From an uncultured bacterium (GTDB lineage: Bacteria; Bacillota_I; Bacilli_A; RF39; UBA660), in the NCBI GenBank assembly GCA_947169285.1, contig CAMVPB010000001.1, positions 141,226 through 205,225 on the forward strand: a DNA stretch of 64,000 bases, written 5' to 3'. This document shows positions 31,004 to 56,107 of this stretch, piece after piece (the stretch's first letter is position 1; each line of letters begins with the position of its first letter). Below the pieces are notes generated by a model, which was not told the DNA's origin, did not search any database, and saw only the letters and a program-made list of their open reading frames with translations. Made by a program: the position numbers and the translations under genes.

Positions 31004-31468
31004 TTATTTAAACTTTTCTTGTCTTTCTTCAAGTAGATATTTTAATCTGCTAGATCTCATTATTTGATTATTTAATGAACCTATTGAAATATTTAAATCT
31101 AATGTATTACCATTTTTAAATATAATTTTCGATGTTCCTTTTCTCTTACCTTTTTCATATGATAATATATTATTTAATGATATCCATACACAATCAGGTC
31201 TATTAGGAGAAGTTGTAGGAAAAAATATTATTTTATTTGTATCTTCAATAATTATTGGAGATTTATGAGTAATTCCAGATATATTTTTTGTTCCTACATA
31301 TCTTCCTTCATATGTACTACCAAAATACTCGCAACTGCGTTCAATAACACTTAATGTTGGCATAGATACATCATATTCAATATCATTTTCAAGAACTCTA
31401 CTTTCTTCTTCTGATTTAGGCATTATTGCTAATGTATCTTTATTAATTTCATAATCCATAAAATTCAC
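31004..31468 (-). CDS. comK: ComK-family competence transcription factor (short C-terminus)
   Basis: ERSCEYFGSTYEGRYVGTKNISGITHKSPIIIEDTNKIIFFPTTSPNRPDCVWIS matches the B. subtilis ComK core pattern. Confidence 0.88.
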   Translation of the reverse strand: MNFMDYEINKDTLAIMPKSEEESRVLENDIEYDVSMPTLSVIERSCEYFGSTYEGRYVGTKNISGITHKSPIIIEDTNKIIFFPTTSPNRPDCVWISLNNILSYEKGKRKGTSKIIFKNGNTLDLNISIGSLNNQIMRSSRLKYLLEERQEKFK

Positions 31469-31549: not shown

Positions 31550-32668
31550 TTAATAAGTCATAATTGGTAATATTAATTGAATTAATGTACCTTCATCACT
31601 TTCTTTTATAATTATAGGTTTTATTTGGCCATTAAAATATAATTTTATAGTTTCTGTTTCAAATGTTTTTAAAGCTTCTAATAAGTATTTTGCAGAACAT
31701 GAAATTTTTAATTCTTCTCCTTTTTTATTTATTATATCTATTTTTTCTTCTACTTTTCCAGCTTCTTGACTTGAAGAATTTACTATTAATTTATCTTTTA
31801 TTATGGATATTTGAATGGTATTTTTATCTTTTGATTGAGCAAGTAATGAAGCTCTATCAATCATATTATAAAAATCTATCAAATTAACTTCTACTTCCAT
31901 TTCAAAGTTGTTAGGAACAAAATTATCGGTATTAGGATAACTTCCATTTAATAAACTTGATTGAAACAAAATATTATCATATTTAAATAAGATTTTATTA
32001 TTAAATATATGCATTTCTATATCTTTTTCTGATTCTATAATTTTTAATAATTCATTAATATTTCTAGCAGGAATTACAATATTAATACTTTCTTCTACTG
32101 GTGTATTAATTTTTATAATTTTTTTAGCTAATCTATATGAATCAGTTGCCACACATTCTAAAATATTACCTATTATTTTCATATTTATTCCTGTCAAAAG
32201 TGGTCTACTTTCTTGTAATGAAGTAGCAAATGAAGTTTGATTTATCAATTCTTTTAAAGTACTACTTAACATGATTATAGGATTACTTGTTTCTTTAAAA
32301 TCTATTTTAGGAAATTCATTAACTGAGAAACAATTTAAATTATATTTAGAATTTTTTGTGGATATAACAGTTTTATTTCCATCTATTTCTTCTATTGTTA
32401 TAATTTCAGAAGGTAATTTTCTTATTATTTCTAATAAATATCTTCCATATATTATTATTTTTCCTTCTTCATTTATTTCTTTTATATTTTTCTTATCTAT
32501 AAATGTTTTTATAGTTATATCATTATTAGTAGCAGTTAAATATAAACCTTTTTTTTCAAGATTAAATTCGATTCCATTTAATACTGGAATAATATTCCTT
32601 GTAGATATTGCTTTAGTAACTGCATTTAAATTTTCTAATAAAATTTCTTTTTCAATTTTTAATTTCAT
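31550..32668 (-). CDS. dnaN: DNA polymerase III beta clamp
   Basis: MKLKIEKEILLENLNAVTKAISTRNIIPVLNGIEF; SCSAKYLLEALKTF; C-terminal LILPIMTY. Confidence 0.97.
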   Translation of the reverse strand: MKLKIEKEILLENLNAVTKAISTRNIIPVLNGIEFNLEKKGLYLTATNNDITIKTFIDKKNIKEINEEGKIIIYGRYLLEIIRKLPSEIITIEEIDGNKTVISTKNSKYNLNCFSVNEFPKIDFKETSNPIIMLSSTLKELINQTSFATSLQESRPLLTGINMKIIGNILECVATDSYRLAKKIIKINTPVEESINIVIPARNINELLKIIESEKDIEMHIFNNKILFKYDNILFQSSLLNGSYPNTDNFVPNNFEMEVEVNLIDFYNMIDRASLLAQSKDKNTIQISIIKDKLIVNSSSQEAGKVEEKIDIINKKGEELKISCSAKYLLEALKTFETETIKLYFNGQIKPIIIKESDEGTLIQLILPIMTY

Positions 32669-32784: not shown

Positions 32785-34146
32785 TCATTTTTCACTTATT
32801 TTAGATTTTATTTCTATTATTGTACTTCCTAAATCTTTATTTTTTTCTATGTCATGTTTAATTTTTTCAAAAGAATGGATTGCAGTTGCATGATCTCTAT
32901 TTCCAAATTCTAATCCTATTTTAACATAACTTTCATCTGTCATCATTCTACATAAGTAAAAAGCAATATGTCTAGCATTAGTTATAGTAGCATTTCTTTT
33001 TTTACCTTTTAAATCATCCACTGATAAATTAAAATATTTAGCAACACAATCTTGTATTTTTCCAATTGAGTTAGGAGTAAATAATCCTGAATTTGTGTAT
33101 TCTTTAAGAGCTTCTATTGCATCATCTAATGTTAGTTTTGAAATGTTCATTATAGCTTGATATGCGATTAATCTAGTAATAAATCCTTCTATATTTCTAA
33201 CATCACTACCACAATTAGATGCAACATAATTTATTATTTCATCACTTAAATCTATAACTAAATCACTTGTTTTTATTTTCTGTTTTATAATATTTACCTT
33301 TAGCTCATAATTAGGTGGGCTTATATTTACTTTTAATCCCCAATTAAATCTTGTTTTTAATCTATCTTCTAATTCTTTTATATCATCAACTGATCTATCT
33401 GAACAAATGATTATTTGTTTTTCATTATCATATAAAGAATTAAAAGTATTAGTAAATTCTTTTTGAGATTTAATAGCTCCTGTTAAAAATTGAATATCAT
33501 CAATCATTAAAACATCAACATCTCTATATTTTTTTCTAAATAATTCAATATAACTTATATTATCACCTGAACCATCTTTTTTATACATAAGTATTAAATC
33601 ATTAACAAATTGTTCAGTAGTAATATAAAGTACTTTTTTGTTTGAATTTTTTTGTATATAATTACCTATTGCATGCATTAAATGTGTTTTACCAAGACCG
33701 CTATTACCATACAAAAATAGTGGATTATAAAGTTTACCTGGCTTTTGAGCAACAGATAAAGCTGCAGAATAAGCAAGTTTATTACTTTCACCAACTATAT
33801 AATTATCAAAAGTATATTTTGGATTAAAATTACTATAATTTTTATATTCCTCTTTAATATTATTATCAAATATTTCAATAATTTCTTCTTTTTCTACTTT
33901 TTTATCATTACTATTAATAATACTTACAAAATTAAGTTTATTATTAATTTCAACTATTAAATCTTCTATAATATCTTTATAATTATTTATTAAATGTTTT
34001 TTACAAGACTCATGAGGAGTAACAAGATAGATGTCATTATTTTCTATATAGAAATCTATATCTTTAAACCAAATGTTAAAAGAAGAAGAAGAAACTTTAT
34101 TTTTAATGTTATTCAAAAAGATATCTTTAAAGTTATTAACATCCAT
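32785..34146 (-). CDS. dnaA: Chromosomal replication initiator DnaA
   Basis: NPLFLYGNSGLGKTHLMHAIGNYI, IDDIQFL, domain IV FGNRDHATAIHSFEKI. Confidence 0.98.
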   Translation of the reverse strand: MDVNNFKDIFLNNIKNKVSSSSFNIWFKDIDFYIENNDIYLVTPHESCKKHLINNYKDIIEDLIVEINNKLNFVSIINSNDKKVEKEEIIEIFDNNIKEEYKNYSNFNPKYTFDNYIVGESNKLAYSAALSVAQKPGKLYNPLFLYGNSGLGKTHLMHAIGNYIQKNSNKKVLYITTEQFVNDLILMYKKDGSGDNISYIELFRKKYRDVDVLMIDDIQFLTGAIKSQKEFTNTFNSLYDNEKQIIICSDRSVDDIKELEDRLKTRFNWGLKVNISPPNYELKVNIIKQKIKTSDLVIDLSDEIINYVASNCGSDVRNIEGFITRLIAYQAIMNISKLTLDDAIEALKEYTNSGLFTPNSIGKIQDCVAKYFNLSVDDLKGKKRNATITNARHIAFYLCRMMTDESYVKIGLEFGNRDHATAIHSFEKIKHDIEKNKDLGSTIIEIKSKISEK

Positions 34147-53086: not shown

Positions 53087-53794
53087 ATGATAAATTTTAT
53101 AATAGTAGAAGATAATAATGCACATAGAAAAAGTACTGAAAAAGTAATATTAAAATATATGATGAAAAACAAATATGAATTTGAAATTTTTTCGTATGAC
53201 AAAGAAACAGAAGAACTACTAAACTATATAAAAAACAATGATAAAAATAATATATACATATTAGATTTTGAACTTCCAAATACAAATGCTATAGATTTAG
53301 CTAGAGAAATAAGAAAAAATGATTGGAGAAGTCCAATTATTATTTTAACAGCACATGGAGGTATGGCATTTGAATCATTTAAACAAAGACTACAAATATT
53401 AGATTTTATATCTAAGCAGTATAAAGCAGAAGAAAGTTTGATTGAATCTTTTGATATATGTTTAAAACAATTTAATTTAGCAAAATCATTAAAATTAAAT
53501 TATAATTATACTGATTATAATATTCCTTTTGATAAAATATTGTATATTTATAGAGATACTGTAGAAAGAAAATCGGTAATAGTAACAGAAAACTCTGAAT
53601 ATATGATAAGAATTAATATGAAAGATATAAAAGAATTATTACCTAAAACATTTAAATATTCACATAAAGCCTGTATAGTAAATATTAATAAAGTTGAAGC
53701 ATTTGATTGGAAGAACTATGAAATATATTTTTCAAATGGTAGTAAAACAAATTTATTATCAAGAACACACAAGAAGGAGTTAGCAGAAAAATGA
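53087..53794 (+). CDS. agrA: AgrA-like LytTR-family response regulator
   Basis: FIIVEDN, YILDFELPNTNAIDLAREIR, C-terminal LytTR domain (SHKACIVNINKVEAFDW). Confidence 0.88.
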   Translation: MINFIIVEDNNAHRKSTEKVILKYMMKNKYEFEIFSYDKETEELLNYIKNNDKNNIYILDFELPNTNAIDLAREIRKNDWRSPIIILTAHGGMAFESFKQRLQILDFISKQYKAEESLIESFDICLKQFNLAKSLKLNYNYTDYNIPFDKILYIYRDTVERKSVIVTENSEYMIRINMKDIKELLPKTFKYSHKACIVNINKVEAFDWKNYEIYFSNGSKTNLLSRTHKKELAEK

Positions 53795-55089
53795 AAATAT
53801 ATGAAATAATACTATGTATATTAGGAATAACTTTTTGTATCTATACGTATATAAAAAGTTATTCTTTAATTTTTGAAAATAAAATACAAAAAATTGATTA
53901 TAAAATGGAGATTATACTATTTTTAGTGATTATAGCTGCATATTACAATACTTTTTATAATTATGGGTATTCTAAGATAATAATTAGCTTTCTAGAAATA
54001 TTTGCAGTTTTAAGAATAACACATCAAGAAAATATAAAAGCAACATTTTTGAAAACGTTAATTCTATATTTGTTAGAATGTATTATAGAAATTGTTATTG
54101 GAGGATTTGTATTCTATATGTTTTTTAATAGTGTACAATCTTTTGATCAAAATATAATATTTAAAGTTTTATTTTCTTTACTGATAATGTTATTAGTTTT
54201 GTTAGTCGCAAATTTAAATAAATCTTCAAAAATAATTAGAAAACTATATAATTTTATGTCTAAGATTTTTAATGTGACAATGATAATTGTAATGTTATTA
54301 ATTTCAATTTCTATATTGGCATATTGTTTAATAATTTCAACAAGTATATATAGTTATACAGTTACTGCCGTAATGATAATAATCTTATTTGTATTAATAG
54401 TGATATCTATCATTCAAAGTATAAAAACTAAAATAGCCACTGATAAAGAAGAAGTATTGTTAGAGTTCATGAAAGAATATGAAATGATTATTGATAAAGA
54501 AAGAATTGATAGGCATGAGATGGTTAATAATTTACTGGTTTTAAAAAGTATTAAAAATAAAAATACTAAACAGTATGACAAAATACTAGATGATATTTTA
54601 TTAACGTATCAAAGTAATAAATCTTCTAAGGGACTATATGAACTTCCTTCGGGTTTAAAAGGACTTTTTTATTACAAAATCTATGATATGAAAAACAGAA
54701 ATGTTGAGGTTTTTATTAATGTTTCTAATAAAATATTAAAAGATTTAGATAATTTAGATTCTAAAATATTAACTAAAGTGTGCAAAATATTAGGTATACT
54801 TTTAGATAATGCAAAAGATGCAGCTTGTGAATCTAAAGATAAACTAGTTGTTATAGATTTATATAAAGAGGAAGAAAGCATTATTATTTATATTGAAAAT
54901 ACTATGAGTGATAATTTTAATATAAACATTAATAGAATGAAAGTAAAAGGGTTTAGTACAAAAGGTCAAAATAGAGGATATGGATTATATATTGTTGATA
55001 AATTATTAGGTGAGTCAAATAAGATATTGTTAAATCAAAGCATTAAAGATAGTAAGTTTATATCTATTATGACAATAAAAAATAATTAG
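53791..55089 (+). CDS. agrC: AgrC-like GHKL sensor histidine kinase
   Basis: Multi-TM N-terminus; DRHEMVNNLLVLKS, GILLDNAKDAA, KGQNRGYGLYIVDKLL. Confidence 0.9.
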   Translation: MKIYEIILCILGITFCIYTYIKSYSLIFENKIQKIDYKMEIILFLVIIAAYYNTFYNYGYSKIIISFLEIFAVLRITHQENIKATFLKTLILYLLECIIEIVIGGFVFYMFFNSVQSFDQNIIFKVLFSLLIMLLVLLVANLNKSSKIIRKLYNFMSKIFNVTMIIVMLLISISILAYCLIISTSIYSYTVTAVMIIILFVLIVISIIQSIKTKIATDKEEVLLEFMKEYEMIIDKERIDRHEMVNNLLVLKSIKNKNTKQYDKILDDILLTYQSNKSSKGLYELPSGLKGLFYYKIYDMKNRNVEVFINVSNKILKDLDNLDSKILTKVCKILGILLDNAKDAACESKDKLVVIDLYKEEESIIIYIENTMSDNFNININRMKVKGFSTKGQNRGYGLYIVDKLLGESNKILLNQSIKDSKFISIMTIKNN

Positions 55090-55113
55090 GTTTTTAATTC
55101 CTAATTATTTTTT
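55081..55113. terminator. Shared bidirectional terminator between agrC and agrD
   Basis: aataattaggtttttaattcctaattattttttt. Confidence 0.7.
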
Positions 55114-55119
55114 TGTTTA

Positions 55120-55218
55120 TTATAATAAACTTTCAGGAATTTCTTCTTCATCAAACCAGAAAAAGAAACATGCTCCAGTAGCTGTTTTAGCTATAAATTC
55201 ACCTAATAATGCTAACAT
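55120..55218 (-). CDS. agrD: AgrD autoinducing peptide precursor (32 aa; absent from ORF track)
   Basis: Reverse-strand MLALLGEFIAKTATGACFFFWFDEEEIPESLL with AGGAGG RBS, directly downstream of agrB; Cys-hydrophobic core followed by acidic DEEEIPESL tail. Confidence 0.9.
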   Translation of the reverse strand: MLALLGEFIAKTATGACFFFWFDEEEIPESLL

Positions 55219-55251
55219 CTTAATACCTCCTTTTATTCTTATTTAAAATAT

Positions 55252-55860
55252 TTATGCTGGAAGTGGCTTCTTATAATTTTTATAATTAGCATATTTCAGC
55301 TTAAATATTTTATAACTTAAAGGGTTTATCATGAAGCATTCTAAGATTAGTGAAAAGAATATGGAATTTTGTATTAAAACATTTTTTGTTAATATTGAAT
55401 AAATCGTTAATCCAATTGCTATTAAAGTACACAATATTTTATATAAAATTCTCCTTTTTTTTCTAATTAATGGTCTTTTTTCTGTATCAGCAGGAGCATA
55501 TATAATTATAAGAACAATTGATAATATTGATATTATTAATCTTACGTAAAAATTAATTATAAGTAGTTTAACTAAATAAGGCAAAAGCAAAAATGTTAAT
55601 AGAGACCCAATCCAGCATTGCCAAGTTTTCTTGGCGTGTAATCCAAATCCAAATAGTCTTAATAATCCATAAAACAATAATATAAGTAAAAGCTCTTTTA
55701 TTAGATTTAATATAATTGATAATGTTATAATTACGATTGTTTTTGTAATATTTATATATAAAGTTGATAATCCATATTTTATTTCAGCTAGTTTTGTTTC
55801 ATCAAAATTATTTTTTCTTTTAATTGAATTCATTGCTTTATCTATTATTAAATCCTTCAT
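55252..55860 (-). CDS. agrB: AgrB peptide-processing membrane protease
   Basis: GLLRLFGFGLHAKKTWQCWIGSLL, conserved GxHAKxxxxC region; multi-TM. Confidence 0.9.
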   Translation of the reverse strand: MKDLIIDKAMNSIKRKNNFDETKLAEIKYGLSTLYINITKTIVIITLSIILNLIKELLLILLFYGLLRLFGFGLHAKKTWQCWIGSLLTFLLLPYLVKLLIINFYVRLIISILSIVLIIIYAPADTEKRPLIRKKRRILYKILCTLIAIGLTIYSILTKNVLIQNSIFFSLILECFMINPLSYKIFKLKYANYKNYKKPLPA

Positions 55861-56107
55861 ATTCTTACTTCCTACGATTTAAGTTTAACAAGTTTTATTA
55901 TTTAAAAAATAACCGCTAAATATTCAATTAACTTTAATGTTTTAATTATTAATTATTAAAATTATTTGAACCAACTTTTTCACTTTAATCAAGTAAACTA
56001 TAAATTAAAACATATTTTTAGTTAATAATAAAGATATTGTTTACAATTAAAATACTCGCCATAAAATTCATGGGAGTGAAAGCAGTAAAGGAAGGGAAGG
56101 TGTTAAT

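Follow-up and report, generated by a model that had tools for sequence, protein, structure and literature searches.

A convergent agr locus, very probably a working quorum-sensing system, conserved in a family of uncultured RF39 bacteria

The closest known Agr systems, namely agrBDCA of Staphylococcus aureus and the loci of Enterococcus and Turicibacter recovered in this analysis, combine four components: AgrB with its catalytic His and Cys, the signal precursor AgrD, AgrC with its kinase fold and the LytTR-type regulator AgrA. The locus described here has the same four components, and its AgrD shares the layout of leader, core and acidic tail found in those three groups. Nevertheless, agrB, agrD, agrC and agrA are co-directional in these systems, whereas in the present locus agrAC and agrBD run towards each other and meet at a terminator used by both. 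The phospho-acceptor motif of AgrC is His-Glu rather than His-Asp, and there are further differences in the LytTR contact motif and in the candidate operator. The sequence-only reading of this DNA had set the locus against classical ones organized as one agrBDCA operon, a generalization that does not extend to all known loci, since Clostridium acetobutylicum and Clostridioides difficile agr2 are exceptions. The agr2 locus (agrACDB) has the chromosomal order A-C-D-B as found here, but it is reported to be probably expressed as a single transcript (PMC3754575), whereas agrD and agrB are inverted in the present locus. In C. acetobutylicum, separate transcription units are predicted for agrBD and agrCA (PMC10301443) and the ring of the signal comprises six residues (PMC4916163), both as proposed here; its locus (CA_C0082) lies in a different neighbourhood, and we found no mention of convergence in PMC10301443. 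The Listeria monocytogenes peptide CFMFV is likewise an aromatic-rich thiolactone with Cys at the start of the ring (PMC4916163), although its ring comprises five residues and the present family favours six. In the open-licence literature, we found no report of a convergent agr locus or of Agr signalling in RF39. The underlying mechanism is that of ordinary Agr signalling; new here are an architecture that is both convergent and fixed, a candidate operator and receivers lacking a sender.

The window, i.e., the whole stretch of 64,000 nucleotides that was analysed, belongs to a genome of 0.98 Mb that carries a single agrB. From the sequence, a full Agr locus including an agrD of only 32 aa had been proposed, and all four genes were recovered at the same places and on the same strands (Table 1), so that the proposed split into converging agrAC and agrBD also held. 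Profile searches assigned the LytTR domain PF04397 (E=2.7e-16) and the receiver domain Response_reg PF00072 (5.5e-12) to AgrA, and the aspartate of its YILDFEL motif is kept in the family alignment. AgrC, whose N-terminal half is hydrophobic, carries a GHKL domain (PF14501, 1e-10) and matches the NCBIfam AgrC model NF046015 (7.8e-17); its kinase region can be aligned by sequence to S. aureus AgrC as seen in structures 4bxi and 6e52, and the alignment includes the phospho-His. The score of AgrA with the AgrA model NF046049 was 58.2 bits, under the equivalog cut-off; such sub-cut-off scores of AgrA and AgrC are to be expected of distant orthologues. The two genes overlap by 4 nt. AgrB belongs to PF04647 (8.1e-33), and its catalytic His and Cys, seven residues apart, are both invariant in 69/69 aligned homologues. 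Despite its length, AgrD scores 25.3 bits with the curated model TIGR04223 (cut-off 19), and a GGAGG ribosome-binding site lies just 5' of its ATG. The defining parts of an Agr system are thus present, i.e., a His/Cys peptidase AgrB, an adjoining AgrD, a GHKL-type AgrC and a LytTR-type AgrA, whereas the co-directional genes and single transcript of a classical agrBDCA operon are replaced by two halves converging on a two-way terminator. An Rfam search revealed no RNA near agr.

Table 1. Features of the agr locus, in positions of the window
Feature	Position	Strand	Description
agrA	53087..53794	+	Response regulator, receiver and LytTR DNA-binding domains, 235 aa
agrC	53791..55089	+	Membrane histidine kinase, N-terminal hydrophobic helices and GHKL ATPase domain, 432 aa
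Hairpin	55077..55114	.	Bidirectional, terminator-like; between the agrC and agrD stop codons, overlapping the end of agrC
agrD	55120..55218	-	Signal precursor of 32 aa, MLALLGEFIAKTATGACFFFWFDEEEIPESLL; predicted core CFFFWF, acidic C-terminal recognition tail
agrB	55252..55860	-	Membrane peptidase processing AgrD, 202 aa; PF04647
Candidate AgrA operator	55983..56012	-	Direct repeat TGTTTTAAT-N12-TGATTAAAG

The proposal of so short an agrD had been open to refutation by its absence next to agrB in relatives. About 50 relatives have an agrD there, and chance is therefore excluded for this gene. Cores could be defined in 49 of the 50 AgrDs of the family set, and all 49 are distinct. The nucleophile is Cys in 45/50 and Ser in 4/50, three of the Ser types falling in one clade (L031, L034 and L041) and the fourth, L062, standing apart. 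In the remaining one, L050, an AgrD-like precursor with neither Cys nor Ser where the nucleophile normally stands lies at L050:4871-4982 (TSNRTVWLVLDEP). The flanks are near-invariant, with Gly or Ala before the nucleophile and D/E then E after the core, a pattern also described as D-E-P/E. Hypervariable cores between near-invariant flanks are what one would expect if the signal is private and is read by a receptor of its own. Core residues in the family are 91% hydrophobic and on average 40% aromatic (F/W/Y). The description of the window core as unusually aromatic therefore needs qualifying: with FFFWF after Cys, i.e., five aromatics, it is the family extreme (YWWFL, AWWWF and WLWFF follow closely), but an aromatic core as such is the family norm. 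As for the two rings suggested earlier, CFFFW and CFFFWF, the family alignment favours the latter, with cleavage before the acidic tail, and speaks less for the former. A cut before the acidic residue gives six-residue rings in at least 37/49 cores; that of the window also yields one if the cut falls before DEEE. Besides the aromatic CFMFV of L. monocytogenes and the six-residue ring of the C. acetobutylicum signal, Ser in place of Cys is already known in Agr peptides (PMC4916163), and these precedents keep the predicted chemistry within known bounds.

AgrB was found in 36/58 sampled genomes of the same family, and AgrC relatives in 36/58 as well. In the nearest relative, of the same genus, AgrB is 83% identical over the 144 residues present on that contig. 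AgrB and AgrC are convergent in every family locus that has both on one contig. A 66-row AgrB tree places the family, including the window, in a clade of 50 rows with support of 100/100, and convergent orientation was observed in 45/45 clade rows of known orientation. Among the outgroups, the nearest ones, Enterococcus and Turicibacter, have co-directional genes, and those of Clostridium yunnanense diverge; the convergence is most simply read as a single rearrangement at the origin of the clade. The split layout, singled out earlier as notable, does depart from the classical operon, but it is a trait of a family-level clade and not of this genome alone. The second, distant agrB of one genome (L027 of G010) is convergent, yet the tree sets it apart from the clade, at the end of a long branch. 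Most relatives whose contigs are long enough, though not all, share the gene order rpiB, spoIID, spoIIQ, (spoIIID), agrA, agrC, agrD, agrB, csp, hpf, secA. This recurrent neighbourhood points to vertical inheritance of agr as a fixed core locus rather than to an acquired island.

The stop codons of agrC and agrD are separated by 30 nt, filled by an A-tract/T-tract hairpin. Its predicted folding energies on the two strands are -13.9 and -14.2 kcal/mol, with z about -3.4 on both, in agreement with the shared terminator that had been proposed between the halves. Hairpins with z < -2 fill this gap in 36/42 loci, that of the window included, although their sequences differ. A terminator consensus scanner did not call the hairpin in the window gap, because its stem has few G-C pairs. 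Insertions of 1.5-2 kb lie between the converging agrD and agrC in L036 and L062, with a transposase-like reading in L036.

Position-blind EM on the regions upstream of agrB in the family revealed a direct repeat, TGTCTTAAA-N12-TGTCTTAAA, with a spacing of 21 bp. Over spacings of 10 to 33, it scored 108.8, compared with 94.4 for the next spacing and 29 to 44 for shuffled controls; only a 10-bp-spaced motif, TTCGACA, which resembles tandem Spo0A boxes, scored as well (109.8). The best 21-bp site lies 115-135 nt 5' of agrB in 33/50 loci, although position was unused in training, and it occupies that place in 8/12 held-out genomes against about one expected (G071, a near copy of L038, was left out of this set); relatedness among the loci and genomes lowers the weight of both counts. 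The window copy is located 122 nt 5' of where agrB starts, with csp about 95 nt away. At 9.4 bits, around the 95th percentile of random 260-nt stretches, it is weak, and it is considered a candidate operator mainly for its conserved place; stronger copies occur in L052 and L030. The LytTR contact motif of the window AgrA, FKYSHKA, differs from FFRCHNS of S. aureus at R198, N201 and S202 and keeps H200 (contact positions from PMC4227749). This divergence fits a different operator but proves nothing, and binding by AgrA should not be assumed.

The repeat could also serve another regulator, or csp, instead of AgrA control of agrBD. We regard this as possible but rather unlikely, weighing its position between the agrB and csp starts, the frequency of the Spo0A-like TTCGACA boxes in the same region of relatives and the reverse, csp-facing orientation of the repeat in G022 and G032 against its fixed distance from agrB and the lack of a comparable repeat upstream of agrA in the family loci. 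The spacing of 21 bp, two helical turns, is that of other LytTR direct repeats. G022 bears on both sides: it has lost agrBD, but it keeps agrAC together with a near-perfect repeat before csp-hpf-secA.

It is very likely that the locus encodes a functional Agr system signalling through a cyclic autoinducing peptide, with a proposed feedback on agrBD only. What we observe is the set of genes with their domains, a layout that is conserved, the hairpin and the operator motif of the family; from these we infer its chemistry, signalling and feedback. AgrB would cut AgrD before the acidic tail and join the new C-terminus to the single Cys as a thiolactone, the most likely product being a ring of six residues, CFFFWF, which may carry a short tail at its N-terminus. 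The exported peptide would be sensed by AgrC, leading to phosphorylation of AgrA, which may then bind the 21-bp-spaced repeat between agrB and csp and activate agrBD in a positive feedback. Since the locus is divided into two converging units, agrAC and agrBD, which share a two-way terminator, this feedback would be limited to the signal-making half. As no such repeat lies upstream of agrA, expression of the sensing half probably does not depend on the signal. The split is thus predicted to separate signal feedback from receptor expression, a regulatory contrast with the classical operon.

Two other readings of the locus appear very unlikely. One is that it is a relic or a system being lost, its genes intact by chance after genome reduction and its signalling unselected. 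The genome is indeed small, agrB is missing from about 38% of the sampled family genomes and some retain agrAC alone; nevertheless, the four frames are intact with invariant catalytic residues, the agrD flanks are conserved while the cores diversify, and terminator and synteny have been maintained over deep divergence. The other, equally improbable, is that the AgrBD peptide mainly serves a purpose other than self-sensing, e.g., inhibition of the Agr systems of others, with agrAC answering another signal and the proximity of the halves being historical. Agr peptides do cross-inhibit across species, the two halves are predicted to be separate transcription units, and orphan agrAC loci and tandem agrC pairs indicate that sender and receiver can be uncoupled; against this stand the physical linkage of both halves in essentially every member that has both and the candidate operator, which ties agrBD to a LytTR regulator. 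A phage origin of the locus was rejected, as AgrB has no match in the phage collection.

If functional signalling is the correct reading, a large group of uncultivated small-genome gut bacteria would have kept peptide quorum sensing in a fixed convergent layout. The locus family yields about 50 concrete peptide sequences and a candidate operator, and supplies natural Cys-to-Ser changes as well as receivers without senders. The latter are agrAC or agrAC-like pairs in four genomes in which no agrB was found, at L187 (G022), L182 (G023), L183 (G025) and L184 (G064), and these agrAC-only genomes are possible listeners. In addition, two tandem agrC genes face one agrB, with one agrA and agrBD, in L185 (G068), L186 (G024) and L064.

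Candidate targets of AgrA were also considered. RNAIII-like or PSM-like targets were rejected, since a family-wide pattern search with 19 places inspected revealed no shared downstream gene or small peptide. In many genomes, the operator pattern is about as frequent as its reversed control, and it is therefore too loose to define a regulon. The window also encodes an unambiguous regulator of competence, ComK, at 31007-31468 (-) (PF06338, 1.2e-47), downstream of dnaN (31553-32668) and dnaA (32788-34146). Among the 58 sampled family genomes, comK is present in 56 and Spo0A in 53; in the window genome, Spo0A was noted outside the window, at G000:C1:234584-234895. In relatives, TTCGACA/TGTCGAA boxes are found repeatedly in front of comK and between agrB and csp; none was found in the agr region of the window. 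Control of comK by Agr as a general rule was rejected: a matching repeat lies beside comK only in G032 (L070), no comparable one being found in the readable comK upstream regions of other members, and the connection is only a lead. It is a doubtful idea that AgrA acts from the agrB-csp region to switch signal production together with the csp-hpf side, and in some species comK, so that the peptide would set dormancy or competence. The csp-hpf side stands for a cold-shock protein and ribosome hibernation, and the hosts have genomes of about 1 Mb; if the idea were true, species with agrAC and the operator but without agrBD would only listen. AgrB-domain proteins with the His/Cys spacing also occur near csp, in the neighbourhood that agr occupies in relatives, at L189:3713-4945 (G036) and L188:2108-2799 (G028), where an HTH-like stretch follows at the C-terminus or separately and, in L188, a LytTR protein comes next.
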